Assembly: GCA_017883075.1 (NCBI GenBank)
Contig: JADGOI010000014.1
Span: 1-34,714, forward strand
Length of the DNA: 34,714 nt
DNA from: Acidimicrobiales bacterium
Lineage (GTDB): Bacteria > Actinomycetota > Acidimicrobiia > Acidimicrobiales > RAAP-2
Direction: 5' to 3'
Numbering within the stretch: position 1 is the first letter of the stretch; every line of letters begins with the position of its first letter. This document shows, piece after piece, positions 26,123 to 34,714 of this stretch. A model generated the notes under the pieces. The model saw only the letters and a program-made list of their open reading frames with translations. It was not told the DNA's origin and ran no database searches. A program made the translations under genes and the position numbers.

Positions 26123-27424
26123 ATGATCGATATCCGGCAGGTCAGGGAAGACGTTGATGGGGTAAAGGTGGCGCTCGGACGTCGGGGTGTGGATCCGACC
26201 GAGATCGACCGCCTCTTCCAGCTCGACACTGCGGCCCGGGCTGCCGTCGGCCGACGCGACGATCTCCGGGCCCAGGTGAAAACTCTGTCGAAGCAGGTGG
26301 GTGAGGCCCGCCGTTCGGGGGATGCCACCGGCGCCGACGAGTTGTCCACCCGTAGCCGAGCTCTCGGTGACCAAGAGGCTGCTCTCGACGACGCTGCCAC
26401 CCGCGCCCAGCACGAGGTGCGCGAGGCCCTGCTCTATCTCCCCAACCTTCCTGCCGCCGACACTCCCGATGGAGCGGGTCCCGAGGACAACGTGGTTGTC
26501 CGCACCTGGCCCGAGGTGCCGCCTACCTATAGCGATGCGCAACGGATGCCCCACTGGGAGATCGGGTCCACGCTCGGCATCTTGGACATGGAGCGCGGCG
26601 CCAAGCTGTCCGGCTCCATGTTCCCGCTCTACCGGGGGTTCGGCGCTCGCCTGCTGCGGGCGCTCACCACGTATGCCCTGGACCGACACGCCGACGCCTT
26701 CGAAGAGATCCGTCCGCCGACCCTGGTCAGGACCGAGACGATGGAGTCGACCGGTCAGCTCCCGAAATTCGCCGATGACGCCTACCACCTCGAGCGGGAC
26801 GACCTGTGGGCTATCCCCACCGCCGAGGCCCCGCTCACCTCGATGGCGCGGGGCGACATCCTCGACGAGGACGAGCTGCCCATGCGGTTGATGGCGGCCA
26901 CCCCGTGCTTCCGCCGGGAGTCCGGCTCCGCCGGGCGGGACACCCGCGGACTGCTTCGGGTTCACGAGTTCGACAAAGTGGAGCTGTTCGCCTACGCCAC
27001 CCCCGACCAGGCCCCCGCGGTTCACGCCGACATCGTGGAGCGGGCCGAGGCTCTGCTGGTGGAGCTCGGGCTCCAGTACCGGGTCCTCAGCTTGTGCGCC
27101 GGCGACATCGGGATCTCCGCGGCTCGCACCTTCGACCTCGAGGTGTACGCCCCCGGGGTCGATCAGTGGCTCGAGGTCTCCTCGATCAGCTGGTTCAGTG
27201 ACTACCAGGCCCGGCGGGGAAACATCCGTTACCGGCCGGCCGGCGGGGGGTCACCGGCGTTCGTCCATACCCTGAACGGCTCGGCCCTGGCCTGGGCGAG
27301 GATATGGGCAGCGTTGGTGGAGAACGGGCGTCAGGCCGACGGCTCCATCGTCCTCCCCGAGGTGCTGCATCCCTATCTTCGGGGGGAAGGCGTGATTCCC
27401 GGACCGGGCTCCATGGCGCAGTGA
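26123..27424 (+). CDS. serS: Seryl-tRNA synthetase
   Basis: MIDIRQVREDVDGVKVALGRRG, TAEAPLTSM, CFRRESGSAGRDTRGLLRVHEFDKVELF, GSALAWARIWAALVENGRQADGSIVLPEVL; start ATG 26123. Confidence 0.96.
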   Translation: MIDIRQVREDVDGVKVALGRRGVDPTEIDRLFQLDTAARAAVGRRDDLRAQVKTLSKQVGEARRSGDATGADELSTRSRALGDQEAALDDAATRAQHEVREALLYLPNLPAADTPDGAGPEDNVVVRTWPEVPPTYSDAQRMPHWEIGSTLGILDMERGAKLSGSMFPLYRGFGARLLRALTTYALDRHADAFEEIRPPTLVRTETMESTGQLPKFADDAYHLERDDLWAIPTAEAPLTSMARGDILDEDELPMRLMAATPCFRRESGSAGRDTRGLLRVHEFDKVELFAYATPDQAPAVHADIVERAEALLVELGLQYRVLSLCAGDIGISAARTFDLEVYAPGVDQWLEVSSISWFSDYQARRGNIRYRPAGGGSPAFVHTLNGSALAWARIWAALVENGRQADGSIVLPEVLHPYLRGEGVIPGPGSMAQ

Positions 27425-28248: not shown

Positions 28249-28983
28249 TCAGTCCGGGGAGGCGTTGAATCGGTAGCCGACACCGCGGATGGTGGTGATC
28301 AGGATGGGCAAGGAGGGATCCACTTCGACGTGATTGCGGAGTCGCTTGATGTGCACGTCGAGAGTCTTGGTATCCCCGTAGTAGTCGGATCCCCAGATCC
28401 GATCGATGAGTACGTCGCGGGTCAGCACCCGACCGGAGTTCTCGATCAACAACGACAGCAGTTCGAACTCCTTACGCCGGAGGTGGACATCCACCTCCCG
28501 GACGGAGACCCGGTGCCGGTCGGGATCGATCCGAATGCCACCGGCTTCGAGAATGGGTCGACTGTCGAGGTGGCCGGCGTCGGAGTCGGAGGGGTGATCA
28601 CCCGTTGGGACGCGCCGCAGCACCGCCCGCATGCGGGCGACCAGCTCGCGGAGCCGATACGGCTTGGCGACGTAGTCGTCGGCGCCGACTTCGAGTCCGA
28701 CCACCGTATCGATCTCGGTGCCCTTGGCCGTGACCATGATGATCGGCACCGATGACCGGGCTCGGATAGAACGGCACACGTCGATGCCCGACAACTTGGG
28801 CAGCATCAGGTCGAGCAGGATCAGGTCGGGTGACACCAGATCGAAGAGGCGGAGTGCCTCGACGCCGTCTCTGGCCACGGTGACGTCGAAGCCCTCCCGG
28901 GTCAGTCCGATCACCAGGGCATCGATGAACGACTCCTCGTCCTCGGCCAGCAACACTTTGGTTTGGGACATCTCTGGGGTCAT
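28249..28983 (-). CDS. regX3: OmpR/PhoB-family response regulator, RegX3-like
   Basis: KVLLAEDEESFIDALVIGL, DLILLDLMLPKLSG, winged-helix YYGDTKTLDVHIKRLRNHVE; alternative start MSQTK at 28971. Confidence 0.88.
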   Translation of the reverse strand: MTPEMSQTKVLLAEDEESFIDALVIGLTREGFDVTVARDGVEALRLFDLVSPDLILLDLMLPKLSGIDVCRSIRARSSVPIIMVTAKGTEIDTVVGLEVGADDYVAKPYRLRELVARMRAVLRRVPTGDHPSDSDAGHLDSRPILEAGGIRIDPDRHRVSVREVDVHLRRKEFELLSLLIENSGRVLTRDVLIDRIWGSDYYGDTKTLDVHIKRLRNHVEVDPSLPILITTIRGVGYRFNASPD

Positions 28984-28994
28984 GGTTGCCCGGT

Positions 28995-30233
28995 TCAGGC
29001 CGAGTACTCGGGGGGTCGCGGAAGAACCAGCGTGAAGGTCGATCCTTCGCCTTCCCGGGAGTCGACCTCGACCCGGCCGTGGTGATTGGTGGCAACGTGG
29101 CGAACGATGGACAACCCGAGGCCGGTGCCGCCGGTTTCGCGGCTGCGCCCCAGGTCGACCCGGTAGAACCGTTCGAAGATCCGCTCGAGGTCCCGGGCGG
29201 GAATGCCCACGCCCTTGTCGGCTACCGACAACTTGACATCCCCGTCCACCTGGCTCCCGGCCACCCGCACCACTCCGTCCTCGGGGGAGAACGTCACCGC
29301 GTTCTCCAACAGGCTGTGCATGGCCGATACCAGCTGTCGCCGATCCCCGATGACGTGGATGGGCGGGTCGGGCTCATCCATCTCGATGGTGATCCGGCGC
29401 TGTTCGGCCGCGGCCCTGACACGCTCGACCGCCTCGGCCATCACCAGGTTGACAGAGGTGGGCTCGCGGGGAGGCGTCTCCTCCGACTCGATGCGGCTGA
29501 GGTCGAGGAGGTCGTCGATGATCCGACTCACCCGGAACGCCTCGGTGTGGATCCGGGACGCCAGCCGTTGGGCAATGACCGGATCGGGCTCGACAGTCAG
29601 GGTTTCGGCCAGCAGTCCGAGAGCCCCGATCGGTGTCTTCAACTCGTGACTCACGTTGGCGACGAAGTCGCGGCGAATCTCTTCGAGGCGACGTCGCTCC
29701 GAGACGTCTTCGATGATGGCGATCACTCCGAGTGGCCGCCGGCCGTCGTCGATGAGGCGGGTGCCGATGGTCAAGGTCTGACGGGGAGGTCCATACAGAT
29801 CGAGCGTGCGCTCGTCCGATCCTTTGTGCCAGGCGTTCTCGAGCAGCTCGGTGACGGCCTGAGCGGCGAGGGCGGCGCCGTGACGGTTGTTCATCAGGGC
29901 ACCTGCACGGGCATTGCGAAACCCGACCTCACCGTTCTCGTCGCACACGATCACACCCTGAGGCAGGGTATCGAGCGCCCGGCGCAGGCGGATGGCGTCG
30001 GAACTGGCCTCGGAGACAGCTTCAGCAGCCTCACCGGTCAACTTCTCGAGGTGGCTGAGGACCGGCTCCATACCGCCCTCGTCGGGTGGTTCCGCCCCCA
30101 GCCGATTGGCCAATGCCGTGAGCCGCTGCTGCAGGCTCCGGCGACCGGCCCGGCGTCCCAGCCGTGCGGCGACCACGACAGCAATGACGGCGACGGCGAC
30201 GATCACGATGTACCCGATGACGTACGGCTTCAC
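28995..30233 (-). CDS. senX3: Sensor histidine kinase, SenX3-like
   Basis: PAS-like LDTLPQGVIVCDENGEVGFRN, H-box FVANVSHELKTPIGALGLLAETL, GTGLGLSIVRHV; likely GTG start at 30233 (VKPYVIGYI). Confidence 0.85.
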   Translation of the reverse strand: MKPYVIGYIVIVAVAVIAVVVAARLGRRAGRRSLQQRLTALANRLGAEPPDEGGMEPVLSHLEKLTGEAAEAVSEASSDAIRLRRALDTLPQGVIVCDENGEVGFRNARAGALMNNRHGAALAAQAVTELLENAWHKGSDERTLDLYGPPRQTLTIGTRLIDDGRRPLGVIAIIEDVSERRRLEEIRRDFVANVSHELKTPIGALGLLAETLTVEPDPVIAQRLASRIHTEAFRVSRIIDDLLDLSRIESEETPPREPTSVNLVMAEAVERVRAAAEQRRITIEMDEPDPPIHVIGDRRQLVSAMHSLLENAVTFSPEDGVVRVAGSQVDGDVKLSVADKGVGIPARDLERIFERFYRVDLGRSRETGGTGLGLSIVRHVATNHHGRVEVDSREGEGSTFTLVLPRPPEYSA

Positions 30234-30317: not shown

Positions 30318-30346
30318 TTGAAAAATACTGAAAGATCGTTTACCTT
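30318..30346 (+). promoter_or_regulatory. Putative promoter TTGAAA-N17-TACCTT
   Basis: -35-like 30318-30323, 17-nt spacer, TANNNT -10-like 30341-30346; ATG 8 nt downstream at 30354, compatible with leaderless mRNA. Confidence 0.4.
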
Positions 30347-30353
30347 TGGCCTC

Positions 30354-30764
30354 ATGCTCCCTGACCCCCGCGCAGCAGCCCTTGCACACACCGCATCTGT
30401 GGTCGGCCGGCTGGCCGGCTGGGCCGGGGGGTGGCGACCCGCCCTTCGGGCCCACCTCGATGTGGCCCATCCGGTTTCGGGCCGTCTCGCCGACGTGGTG
30501 CTCCACCCTGACACCAACTCTCTTCCCGGCGGGGATGTCCTCCAGAGCCTGATGAACGGGCTGGGCGGCTGGGCCCTGGCGCTGTCCTTGGTCGGGCTGC
30601 TGATCGGCGCGGCGGCATGGGCGCTCGGCTCCCATGGCCAGAATTACCAGCAGACATTCGTCGGCCGGCGGGCGGTGTTGATCTCAGGGCTGGCGGCCTT
30701 GTTGGTGGGAGCGGGCCCGGCCATCGTCAACTTCTTCTACAAGGCGGGGCAGGGGGTCCATTGA
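30354..30764 (+). CDS. Small two-TM membrane protein, VirB2/TrbC pilin-like position in T4SS-like locus
   Basis: LMNGLGGWALALSLVGLLIGAAAWALGSHGQNYQQTFVGRRAVLISGLAALLVGAGPAIVNFFYKAGQG; genomic context. Confidence 0.65.
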   Translation: MLPDPRAAALAHTASVVGRLAGWAGGWRPALRAHLDVAHPVSGRLADVVLHPDTNSLPGGDVLQSLMNGLGGWALALSLVGLLIGAAAWALGSHGQNYQQTFVGRRAVLISGLAALLVGAGPAIVNFFYKAGQGVH

Positions 30765-30765
30765 C

Positions 30766-32163
30766 ATGTTGACCGCGCTGGGCATCCCGTCGATCCCGGG
30801 CTTGGCCTGCCCGGCTGCGGCCGGAGCGCTGGGCGTGGCCGGTCTCGGCCCGATCTGTCAGGCGGCCGGTGGAGTTGCGGGGGCAGCCGCGACCCAGGTC
30901 GCCGGTTTCGGCGTTTCCAGCATCCTCGACGCCATTTCGGGATGGGTTTCCGCCGGAGGAGTCTGGCTGCTCGGACAGATCGGCACGTTTCTGGATGCGA
31001 CCACGACCGTCGATCTCGGGGCTTCATGGTTCACCAGCCACTACCAGACCATGGCCGGATTGGCCGGGGTGGTGATCATGCCGATGCTGTTGCTCGGGGT
31101 GATGCAGGCCATCCACCGGCAAAGTGCCTCGATGCTCATCCGTTCCGTGGTCATCAACGTGCCTCTGGCGATGGTGCTCACCGCCGTGGCGGTCAAACTG
31201 GTCCAGCTCGGACTGGCCCTGACCGACTCGATGAGTGCGACCGTCGCCCATGGTGCCGGGCTCGATAGCGGGCACTTCTTCGGCTCCACCATCACCGGGT
31301 TATCGGGTCCCACCACCGGAGGCCCGGTGACCCCGACGTTCGTGCTGCTCCTCGGCGGCCTGGCCGTGGTCTTCGGGGCATTCCTGTTGTGGGTCGAACT
31401 GCTGGTTCGCTCCGCGGCCGTCTACGTGGCCGTCCTCTTTCTCCCGCTCGCTCTGGCCAGCTTGGCGTGGCCGGCCATCGCCCATTGGACCCGTCGGTTG
31501 GTCGATACCTTGGCGGCATTGATCCTGGGCAAATTCGTGATCATTTCGGTGCTGAGCCTGGCCGTCGGTGCTCTGGCCGGGGGATCGGGTTCGACCCCGG
31601 CCGGTGCGACCGGAGCCGGGGCCGGTGCCCATAGCGGCTTCACCGATGTGCTGGGGGGCGCCGCCCTCCTCATGTTGGCGGCGTTTTCTCCCTGGGCGCT
31701 CTTTCGGCTCCTCCCCTTCCTCGAGGCGGGAGCGGTGAGCCATCTCGAAGGTGCGGGGCGCCGGACATCTCAGACTGCACTGGGGCCGCCCAAGAGCCTG
31801 GCCCAGACGGCCATGCGGATGTCGGCCGGAGGTGCCACCGGCGGCGCCAGTGAGGTTGGCATGGCGATGACGTCAGCGGTAGGTGCCAAGTCATCGCAAG
31901 GCAGTGCGGGCGAGGGAGGCGGGACAGGCGGGTCCGCGTCCCCGCTCCCTGACCTCGGGCGTTCGGCGGTCGAGAAGAACGGGGTGGGGACAGCCACCCC
32001 ACCGGGGGCCAGTGTGCCCCTGCGAACTCCCCATCCCCGGGCCGGTCACGACGCCAGCGCGGTCATGCGCGGGGAGGCGTCTCCGGGTGAGGGGGACACC
32101 TCCGACTCCGCCGGATCGCCATCCCGATCACCGGCAGCCCAACCCCTGACGCTGAAGACGTGA
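30766..32163 (+). CDS. TrbL/VirB6-like polytopic conjugal transfer membrane protein with disordered C-terminus
   Basis: Multiple TMs, Gly/Ser/Pro-rich tail from about 31770; context. Confidence 0.68.
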   Translation: MLTALGIPSIPGLACPAAAGALGVAGLGPICQAAGGVAGAAATQVAGFGVSSILDAISGWVSAGGVWLLGQIGTFLDATTTVDLGASWFTSHYQTMAGLAGVVIMPMLLLGVMQAIHRQSASMLIRSVVINVPLAMVLTAVAVKLVQLGLALTDSMSATVAHGAGLDSGHFFGSTITGLSGPTTGGPVTPTFVLLLGGLAVVFGAFLLWVELLVRSAAVYVAVLFLPLALASLAWPAIAHWTRRLVDTLAALILGKFVIISVLSLAVGALAGGSGSTPAGATGAGAGAHSGFTDVLGGAALLMLAAFSPWALFRLLPFLEAGAVSHLEGAGRRTSQTALGPPKSLAQTAMRMSAGGATGGASEVGMAMTSAVGAKSSQGSAGEGGGTGGSASPLPDLGRSAVEKNGVGTATPPGASVPLRTPHPRAGHDASAVMRGEASPGEGDTSDSAGSPSRSPAAQPLTLKT

Positions 32164-33752
32164 GCGTGTCGGAACCCGCGATGCGCACCGAGCGAGTGCG
32201 CTACCGCTTCGGTCCTTTGGAACAGCGGGGCCTGATCGCCGGTTGGCGAGGCGGACAGATCGGGTCGGTGGCCACCGGGTTGGTGCTCGGTGTCCTCGTC
32301 CTGCGTTCCCATCCCTCGGTGGTCGGCGTCCTCGGGGCACTGCTCTGTACCGGGACCGGTGTGGCTGTGGCCTGTTGGCCGGTGAGGGGCCGGACCGGTG
32401 AGCAGTGGCTTCCGCTGGTGCTGCGTTGGTTGGTGGCCGAGTTGCGCGGTGGCCACCGACAGCACGCCGGCGCTCCCGGTCTGGGCCATCTGGCTGCGGT
32501 AGGCCCTCTCGACGATGGGAGTGACCGTTCGTCAGTTCGCACTGCTCGACCTGCCGGGCACCGAGCCTTCGCGGCACCTGGGGTGTTCGACGGGCTCCGC
32601 ATCATTCCGCTACCGGTCAGCGACGACCGGGATGCACCGGTTGCCGGAGTGGTGATGGATGCCCGGGCCCGGACCGCCACTGCGGTACTGGCGGTGCGTG
32701 GCCACAGTTTCGCGCTGCTCGGTCCGAATGACCAGGATTCGCGCATCACCGCCTGGGCCCGGGTGTTGGCATCCATGGCTCGAGAGGGATCCACCGTCCA
32801 CCGGGTGCAGTGGGTCGAATCGTCCCTCCCCGACGACGGAAGTGGGGTGCGGCATCACCGAGAAGCGAATGCGGTGCTCGGGGTCGACACCGCTCCGGGG
32901 CGTTCCTATCAGTCATTGGTCGACCAGTCGGCCCCGGTGACCCGACGCCACCGGGTGTTGCTGGCCGTATCGATTCATACCGCCCGCTCGTCACGGGCGA
33001 TCCGGGCGTCGGGGGGCGGAGACAAGGGGGCGGCTGCGGTGCTGCTGCGAGAGGTGATGGCTCTGCAACGACTGATGGAGGAAGCCGATGCCACCGTCGA
33101 CGGGATTCTGGGGCCGGGAGGTTTGGCCTCGGTGGTGCGGGAGTCGTCGGCCCCTTTGACTTCGGCGGCCGGCTCGGGGACACCTCCGTTGCCGGGCATG
33201 GCCACAGGTTCGGGTGGAAGTGGACGTGAACCGTCGCACGGGTGGCCGTGGCCGATGGTGATCGAACCGCAGTGGGATTCGGTCCACATCGACGCCACCT
33301 GGCACGCGACCTATTGGATCGCCGAGTGGCCCCGGATCGATGTGACGCCTGACTTCTTGGGCCCGTTGCTCTTCTCACCGCTCCGACGTTCCATCTCCCT
33401 GGTGATGGAACCGGTGAGCCCGAGTCGGGCCGCACGCCAGGTTGCCCAGGCACGGACTGCCGACATCGCTGACGGCGAGCTGCGACGGCGGGGCGGCTTC
33501 CTGGTGACTGCACGCCAAACCCGCGAGAAGGAAGGGGTAGAACATCGGGACGTCGAGTTGGCCGACGGCCATGCCCAATACCGATTCTCGGGGTACATCA
33601 CCGTGACCGCCGACAGCCGTGATGCCCTGCGCGACGACTGCGGGTCCATTGAACAAGCGGCCGGGCAGGCTCGGATGGAGCTCCGGCAGCTCTACGGAGA
33701 ACAGGATGTGGCCTTCGCCTGCACCCTGCCGCTGTGCCGGGGACTCACATGA
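32160..33752 (+). CDS. SCO6880-family-like protein (VirB4 N-terminal-like, T4SS component)
   Basis: YRFGPLEQRGLIAGWRGGQIGSV, TWHATYWIAEWPRIDVTPDFLGPLL, RQVAQARTADIADGELRRRGGFLVTARQTREKE; GTGA overlap with previous gene. Confidence 0.75.
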   Translation: MSVSEPAMRTERVRYRFGPLEQRGLIAGWRGGQIGSVATGLVLGVLVLRSHPSVVGVLGALLCTGTGVAVACWPVRGRTGEQWLPLVLRWLVAELRGGHRQHAGAPGLGHLAAVGPLDDGSDRSSVRTARPAGHRAFAAPGVFDGLRIIPLPVSDDRDAPVAGVVMDARARTATAVLAVRGHSFALLGPNDQDSRITAWARVLASMAREGSTVHRVQWVESSLPDDGSGVRHHREANAVLGVDTAPGRSYQSLVDQSAPVTRRHRVLLAVSIHTARSSRAIRASGGGDKGAAAVLLREVMALQRLMEEADATVDGILGPGGLASVVRESSAPLTSAAGSGTPPLPGMATGSGGSGREPSHGWPWPMVIEPQWDSVHIDATWHATYWIAEWPRIDVTPDFLGPLLFSPLRRSISLVMEPVSPSRAARQVAQARTADIADGELRRRGGFLVTARQTREKEGVEHRDVELADGHAQYRFSGYITVTADSRDALRDDCGSIEQAAGQARMELRQLYGEQDVAFACTLPLCRGLT

Positions 33753-34714
33753 GGACGCCGACGCCACGTGTGCCGGCCCATATCGCCACGACCAGGCATC
33801 TCAGTGTCGCCTATCCGCTGGCCACCGAGGCCGGGCTCGGCCATCAAGGGGTGCTGATCGGTCAGGACGTGCTGGGCGGCTCATTCGTCTATGACCCGTT
33901 CGTGCTCTACCTCCAGGGGGTGATCACCAATCCCAACATGGTGGTGTTCGGCCAGATCGGTCGGGGGAAGAGTTCATTCGTGAAGTCGTACCTGTGGCGA
34001 CAGGCGGTGTTCGGTCGGCGGGCTTGGGTGGTCGATCCGAAGGGGGAGTACGGCCCCTTGGCCCGGGCCTGGGGGGTCACACCGGTGGCGCTGCGTCCCG
34101 GCGGCTCAGTCCGACTCAATCCGCTCGATACCGGGGAACTGAACAATGGCGCGGGCCCCGAGGATGACCGTCGACCCGATGGCGCCGGCGGTGGAGCCCG
34201 TGGCGACGAGGCGTGGCGCCGCCGGGTCGAGCTCACCGCCTCGTTGGCGGTGGCCTGTCTGGGTCGCCAGCTGGTGCCGAGGGAGCGGGCCGCCATCGAC
34301 GCCGCCCTCACCGAGGCCACCGAACGTTCGCGGACGGCTCAGATGCCGGCACCCACCCTCCCCGACGTCGTCGAGTCGCTACTCGATCCGAGTGCGCACG
34401 CCGCCCGCCAGCTCCGTACCGATCAGCTCACGTTGATGGAGGACGGAAGAGATGTGGCTCTCGAGCTCCGGCGCCTTGTCTACGGTGACCTCCGGGGGAT
34501 GTTCGACGGACCCACCACACCGGGCCTCCGCCTCGATGCCCCCCTGGTGGTTCTGGACCTGTCGGCGGTCTACAACTCACCGGCCCTGGGAGTCCTGATG
34601 GCGTGCGCCACAGCGTGGCTCCAGAACGCGGTCCAGGCCGAGCACCGGCACCGGGTCATCGTGGTGGTGGACGAAGCCTGGGCGATCCTCAGCAAGACGG
34701 GCGTTGCCCTGCGC
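33749..34714 (+). CDS. VirB4/TraC-like ATPase, 3'-truncated by window edge
   Basis: ATG at 33749 (ATGA overlap), frame open to window end; Walker A FGQIGRGKSSFVKSYL, DPKGEY, Walker B RVIVVVDEAWAIL; absent from the ORF track because there is no stop. Confidence 0.8.
   Translation, partial: MRTPTPRVPAHIATTRHLSVAYPLATEAGLGHQGVLIGQDVLGGSFVYDPFVLYLQGVITNPNMVVFGQIGRGKSSFVKSYLWRQAVFGRRAWVVDPKGEYGPLARAWGVTPVALRPGGSVRLNPLDTGELNNGAGPEDDRRPDGAGGGARGDEAWRRRVELTASLAVACLGRQLVPRERAAIDAALTEATERSRTAQMPAPTLPDVVESLLDPSAHAARQLRTDQLTLMEDGRDVALELRRLVYGDLRGMFDGPTTPGLRLDAPLVVLDLSAVYNSPALGVLMACATAWLQNAVQAEHRHRVIVVVDEAWAILSKTGVALR

Follow-up and report, generated by a model that had tools for sequence, protein, structure and literature searches.

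The window analysed here, a stretch of 34,714 nucleotides (nt), is contig JADGOI010000014.1 (C42, in full) of an Acidimicrobiales draft genome (GCA_017883075.1, G000; 2.8 Mb, 94% complete, 232 contigs). It ends inside the fourth gene of an operon that in its complete form comprises five genes, encoding DUF6112 (VirB2-like), SCO6881 (VirB6-like), SCO6880, a VirB4 ATPase and VirD4. The best explanation for this operon, to which we give a probability of about 0.55, is that it encodes a domesticated, relaxase-less type IV machine that exchanges chromosomal DNA, in analogy to the archaeal Ced system. Hallmarks of the Ced/Ted systems are present, in that the VirB2/6/4-like set is chromosomal, vertically kept and relaxase-less. 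A more specific scenario, which is offered tentatively, is that natural transformation was given up together with ComEC in this lineage, its place being taken by a captured conjugation machine that serves exchange between sister cells, and that mobile elements have repeatedly shut off the motor gene of this machine by integrating into it. Conjugation machines normally belong to mobile elements. Chromosomal counterparts that lack a relaxase and transport the cell's own DNA are known from archaea (Ced/Ted) and in part from Helicobacter (ComB). No earlier description of DUF6112, of a type IV secretion system (T4SS) in Acidimicrobiia or of a senX3-linked T4SS was found in the literature, subscription papers and preprints being outside the search.

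Structure of the operon

The operon genes in the window (positions 30354-34714) are co-directional on the + strand, with the junctions that an earlier note on this DNA had described: a gap of 1 nt (30764/30766), a GTGA overlap (32160-32163) and an ATGA overlap (33749-33752). Gene 1 (30354-30764) encodes a DUF6112 protein (PF19607, E 1.7e-7) with two transmembrane helices and a conserved core at 30489-30758 in a 24-row alignment, and is a putative VirB2/CedA1-like subunit. Gene 2 (30766-32163) encodes a polytopic membrane protein of the SCO6881 family, a putative VirB6/TrbL-like channel. It is followed by gene 3 (32160-33752), a member of the SCO6880 family (NF042935, E 1e-78) with two transmembrane helices and an N-terminal VirB4 domain and without an ATPase domain, and by the first part of gene 4 (33749-34695), the C-terminal ATPase of the VirB4/TraC type (E 6e-18), which is cut after Walker B (DEAWAILS).

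A promoter can be read from the sequence at 30318-30346 (+ strand), with a -35 element TTGAAA (30318-30323), a 17-bp spacer and a -10 element TACCTT (30341-30346) that lies 7 nt 5' of the ATG. The same arrangement occurs in G001, G002, G004 and other genomes (10 of 66 loci, vs 0.2% of shuffles). Since it makes the ATG at 30354 a near-leaderless start, this start is supported, and the alternative at 30462, which the gene caller gave for a congener, was set aside. The gene caller was home-made, and gene starts outside the window are approximate.

The continuation of the operon was found on contig C13 (L058) of the same genome by way of the congener G001, the DNA of which 3' of virB4 is 95% identical to C13 over 5.9 kb. 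This contig carries the remainder of virB4 and, about 10 nt further on, a gene for a VirD4/TraG coupling protein of 550 amino acids (PF02534, E 8.5e-28; TraG-D_C, E 8e-20), the protein that the earlier note had proposed to look for downstream. Contig C46, which was also considered as the continuation, carries a related element junction instead. In close relatives the next genes 3' of the operon are metabolic (an amidohydrolase, a cytochrome P450 and a ROK-family kinase, named by inspection). When the loci of relatives were compared, no relaxase, integrase, NlpC/P60 or primase gene was conserved within the operon.

Fixed chromosomal site and vertical inheritance

In the window the operon is preceded by three conserved landmarks: serS, for seryl-tRNA synthetase (26123-27424, + strand), and, on the - strand, a regX3-like response regulator gene (28249-28983) and a senX3-like histidine kinase gene (28995-30233), the latter being the divergent neighbour of gene 1. 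The order serS, regX3, senX3, DUF6112, SCO6881, SCO6880, VirB4, VirD4, with regX3 and senX3 pointing against the others, recurs in dozens of genomes. The whole operon is present in the same order in about 40 loci of family f1 and about 45 loci of other families, and the senX3-linked form was found in 50 surveyed genomes from 17 families, i.e., the window's own family and 16 further families of the order. The same locus can be seen in named records of Acidimicrobiaceae and Acidimicrobiales metagenome genomes, such as PKXA01000061 (palsa_655), which corresponds to G001. Among cultured bacteria, Salsipaludibacter albus has a homologue that is not linked to senX3. Conservation beside senX3-regX3 across Acidimicrobiia, which the earlier note had suggested to check, is thus strongly positive. 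Within the window's family, VirB4 is present in 112 of 120 genomes and 20 of 21 genera, including small genomes of 1.4-2.9 Mb, and it has been kept in about 55 species of one small-genome genus.

The operon genes are under purifying selection, as the ratio of nonsynonymous to synonymous substitution rates is 0.08-0.36 and stops are absent in comparisons of G000 with G001, G004 or G002. The recurrence in dozens of genomes and the selection against amino acid change place the operon far beyond chance. For 60 linked loci, a tree of VirB4 and SCO6881 was compared with a tree of SenX3 and RegX3. The Mantel correlation was 0.81, a value not reached in any of 2000 permutations; 31 of 57 splits were shared, vs 0.2 after shuffling, and six of the eight families represented by several genomes were monophyletic in both trees. 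The anatomy of the operon and its vertical inheritance can therefore be accepted with high confidence.

A fixed chromosomal place and vertical inheritance would also fit a complex that handles the chromosome during division or differentiation, moving DNA within the cell or through a septum, like the Streptomyces cmdABCDEF genes. This cluster (SCO4126-4131) is chromosomal, conserved in the three streptomycetes tested and affects sporulation and chromosome segregation; its mutants mis-segregate chromosomes, and CmdB (the VirB4-like protein), CmdC and CmdD are described as closely related to SCO6878, SCO6880 and SCO6881 (PMC2782261). Compared by the description in that paper, however, the cmd cluster has another gene set and another location than the window operon and is tied to sporulation, whereas the operon is kept in small, streamlined genomes with no known differentiation. 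Furthermore, the operon is dispensable, since it is missing in 8 of 120 genomes of the family and disrupted by elements in others. A role in chromosome handling thus seems quite unlikely.

The neighbouring regulators raise another possibility, namely that a chromosomal type IV machine secretes effector or toxin proteins to neighbours or into the medium, with VirD4 acting as the receptor. The divergent senX3-regX3 pair recalls the control of ESX secretion in mycobacteria, and the retention of VirD4 without a relaxase is what is seen in dedicated effector T4SSs. However, effector-like genes do not figure among the conserved genes of the operon and its surroundings, the conserved neighbours being serS and the P450 and ROK kinase genes, and no PHO-like direct repeat indicative of PHO-box/RegX3 control was found in 34 intergenic regions between senX3 and DUF6112. 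Regulation of the operon by RegX3 is a guess from its position, and protein secretion is considered unlikely.

A VirB4 split over two genes

The assignment of the third gene deserves attention because the proteins of its family have carried another label. Family profile NF045971 of VirB4 runs from gene 3 (202-362) into gene 4 (413-565). An AlphaFold (AF2) model of gene 3 is of good quality, with a predicted local distance difference test score (pLDDT) of 87 and a predicted template modelling score (pTM) of 0.86. In a Foldseek search its first fourteen matches were all R388 TrwK/VirB4 (best E 4.3e-10, probability 1.00). Judged from this model, SCO6880 corresponds to the N-terminal half of VirB4, which indicates that VirB4 is split over two genes. 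The two hydrophobic helices at the N-terminus of gene 3 could then be a VirB3/PrgI-like part fused to VirB4, as expected of such a fusion. The ATPase half is encoded by gene 4, the VirB4 family profile matching PDB entries 4ag5 and 4ag6 (E 4e-26), and among the senX3-linked VirB4 proteins Walker A is present in 64 of 64 and Walker B, with its DEAW motif, in 63 of 64. Together with the PF02534 coupling protein downstream, these assignments bear out the type IV secretion-like character that had been proposed for the locus.

Gene 3 passes the Pfam cutoff for EccE, a component of ESX (type VII) secretion, and the next Foldseek match after the VirB4 structures is an ESX-3 structure (6umm, E 7.5e-5), which explains the label. 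A type VII identity was rejected, since VirB4 structures match far better (E 4e-10 vs 7.5e-5). The operon also lacks an EccC-type FtsK/SpoIIIE ATPase, its ATPases belonging to the VirB4 and VirD4 families. The name EccE for SCO6880 proteins should thus be corrected, as they look like halves of a split VirB4.

The remaining membrane proteins are less well defined. Gene 2 matches the SCO6881 family profile (NF047967) with an E value of 2e-10, a match that falls short of the NCBI cut-off. Its AF2 model is poor (pLDDT 66) and all-helical, and five of its best six PDB matches are R388 TrwI/VirB6, at weak E values of 0.03-0.15. Searches of the SCO6880 and SCO6881 profiles against PDB chain sequences gave nothing usable. 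DUF6112 is a family without an assigned function, but the small size of gene 1 and its two hydrophobic segments make a VirB2-like role plausible.

Relation to mobile type IV loci

The window operon is clearly related to an actinobacterial conjugative module, as found in SCO6871-6884 of Streptomyces coelicolor and in mobile loci of the order Acidimicrobiales (G062, G086, G099), where homologous DUF6112, SCO6881, SCO6880, VirB4 and VirD4 genes occur in the same order. This homology, and the fact that several genomes carry both types of locus, would be expected if the operon were itself a conjugative or integrative element, intact or in decay. The mobile loci differ from the window type in a number of respects, however. 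They lie outside the senX3 context, carry primase and helicase-methylase (SNF2/methylase) genes, have spacing between VirB4 and VirD4, and possess a gene between DUF6112 and SCO6881 that by inspection is VirB8-like. The window type occupies one chromosomal site, and the VirB8-like gene is missing from all but one of its 64 linked loci (63 of 64); a VirB8-type scaffold is likewise absent from minimal T4SSs, Ced among them. The VirB4 proteins of the mobile type form a separate clade of their own with support 99. The earlier note had left open a choice between a conjugative element and a chromosomal export machine. In view of the fixed serS-regX3-senX3 context, the vertical inheritance and the lack of a nearby relaxase and of an integrase, the chromosomal machine stands and the operon is not a conjugative element. 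With synteny fixed across 17 families, congruent trees and purifying selection, the mobile alternative is largely refuted and must be regarded as highly improbable.

The single linked locus that does contain the VirB8-like gene of the mobile loci is that of G097 (L072), and it could be an intermediate of domestication.

Distribution of ComEC

If the machine serves exchange of chromosomal DNA, its distribution may be related to that of the classical DNA uptake channel, ComEC, which was scored by its Competence domain (PF03772). This domain was found in 0 of 37 genomes of the window's family vs 19 of 24 other members of the order. Of 218 order genomes drawn as a larger sample, 131 contained PF03772 and 93 contained VirB4. 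After reading of the gene neighbourhoods, ComEC was present in none of the 50 genomes with the senX3-linked operon and in 131 of the 168 others (Fisher 8e-26, which overstates the association, since the linked families may go back to a common ancestor). The senX3-linked locus was not found in any of the 21 genomes that have both VirB4 and ComEC. Neither protein secretion nor chromosome handling predicts such an exclusion. The close relative G001, the one carrier that was looked at, has kept DprA and an ATPase of the YifB/ComM type; these proteins act downstream of DNA uptake.

The absence of ComEC also bears on the direction of transport. A variant that is compatible with the same anatomy is that transport runs outward, so that chromosomal DNA is delivered to the medium or to mates instead of being imported; VirD4 and VirB4 do normally work in export. 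The ComB system of Helicobacter pylori resembles the window type as a chromosomal T4SS that serves natural transformation (PMC13395361). However, this organism is Gram-negative and ComEC takes part in its transformation, too; ComEC is absent in carriers of the window type, and this favours the export variant. On the other hand, no relaxase that could start export was found in a PF03432 search, and an exporter alone would not cure its donor of mobile elements, so that the targeting of virB4 described below fits import or exchange better. Export is therefore considered rather unlikely, though it should be kept in mind.

Mobile elements inside virB4

The break in virB4 of G000 follows ATCCTCAGCAA and falls in the Walker B region. 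What comes next, the terminal 19 nt of the window (GACGGGCGTTGCCCTGCGC; 34696-34714, + strand), is the left end of a mobile element that has inserted there, which means that the residues following DEAWAILS in the window are foreign. The other end of the element opens contig C13 (L058), where it covers the first 327 nt of the reverse complement (1-327), and element-end sequence is also located at L032 1295-1394. The intact site in G001 is ATCCTCAGCAACCTCGGGG, and virB4 is uninterrupted in both G001 and G002.

The same codon is cut in seven genomes of three genera and a second family: G000, G004 (C85/C107), G008 and G045 (genus g5), G050 and G101 (genus g15), and G233 (family f45); with the exception of G101, the element junctions coincide with contig ends or are distributed over separate contigs. 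The sequence that the recombinase would recognise is ATCCTC(AGC/TCC)AAC. The inserts differ. A right end starting with GACATGGGTTAGC is common to G000, G004 and G008 and occurs in a variant form in G045 (4 of 100 genomes; 0 in the reversed control), while in G101 a serine recombinase gene begins within about 40 bp of the cut and is the first gene of the element. G050 (L141, about 4040) has a second, independent break in virB4, located ahead of Walker A; the element responsible is another one, which by inspection also opens with a serine recombinase. Both halves of virB4 in G000 and G004 still bear signs of constraint, and the insertions thus look recent. Breaks in G281, G270, G224 and G269 were rejected as further examples since they are contig ends or unrelated fragments. 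A group II intron was also dismissed, as a short target duplication is present and no Rfam intron domain was found at the junction (there is a sub-threshold match elsewhere on C46).

Insertions at orthologous but imperfectly conserved sites of competence genes across genera were taken to show that mobile elements target transformation (Croucher 2016; PMC4774983). The interruptions of virB4 fit this description, and such targeting is not predicted by protein secretion.

Proposed mechanism and its weak points

The exchange of chromosomal DNA by a domesticated machine can be envisaged as follows. A relative of the conjugation module would have become fixed beside senX3-regX3 in an ancestor shared by much of the Acidimicrobiales and been inherited vertically since. 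SCO6881 would form the membrane pore, which DUF6112 may line or extend as a short pilus or pore subunit; SCO6880 and the C-terminal VirB4 protein would act as one split motor, and VirD4 would handle the substrate and supply or receive DNA. The substrate is proposed to be single-stranded chromosomal DNA moved between sister cells, the strands being made by host enzymes without a relaxase, as proposed for archaeal Ced (PMC9905601). Import or reciprocal exchange is the most likely mode, since it explains both the loss of ComEC and the disabling of the motor by elements, which export alone does not. The operon would thus replace ComEC-based transformation, and integrative elements would cut virB4 to escape removal by incoming DNA. 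The archaeal Ced/Ted systems, which move DNA, are likewise domesticated chromosomal T4SSs with VirB2-, VirB6- and VirB4-like parts and no relaxase (PMC9905601). They differ from the window operon, which keeps VirD4 and splits VirB4, and in which the match to the CedB profile reaches only E 0.005.

Several points weigh against this explanation. Fifteen of the 218 order genomes (e.g., G085) have neither ComEC nor a VirB4 of the operon's family, and the anticorrelation with ComEC may reflect a single evolutionary event, the linked families perhaps being one clade. The elements may use virB4 merely as a conserved site. In linked loci the P-loop of VirD4 often reads GPTQ[ST]xKT, with R, H, M, F, Y, Q or L in place of the glycine that usually precedes the lysine. 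The Streptomyces cmdABCDEF genes could not replace plasmid transfer (PMC2782261). Finally, PF03432, which is absent from G000 and from 58 of 61 genomes, is the only relaxase family that was sought genome-wide; the three genomes that contain it (G001, G004 and G008) each have a second T4SS copy of the mobile kind.

If the explanation is true, gene exchange in common, mostly uncultured soil and water actinobacteria would have to be understood differently, across at least 17 families of one order whose carrier genomes are devoid of ComEC. Recombination would be expected to require virB4, and clonality to follow in lineages where an element occupies this gene. Among actinobacteria the operon would then correspond to archaeal Ced, and it would provide a second setting in which mobile elements and transformation are in conflict.

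Further observations on mobile loci and elements

Separate T4SS loci of the mobile type occur in the order at L047, L048, L068, L074, L075 and L076, some of which encode a Toprim primase and giant helicase-methyltransferases. Regarding the virB4 elements, a related right end is found on contig C46, where it adjoins a left end that is identical to the last 20-21 nt of the window (RE-CTCCAA-LE, for right and left end), from which it follows that element units exist in tandem or circular form; in G004, tandem units with the right end joined to the left end are found. The element-end contigs L096 (G004 C107; 6243-8876 and 17357-20622) and L136 (G004 C46; 7063-10603) contain further genes. Two tyrosine recombinases (XerC/D-like) are encoded side by side; by eye, there are also E1/JAB/E2-like genes that resemble a defence cassette of the ubiquitin-like kind and a gene for an Arr-like rifampin ADP-ribosyltransferase.

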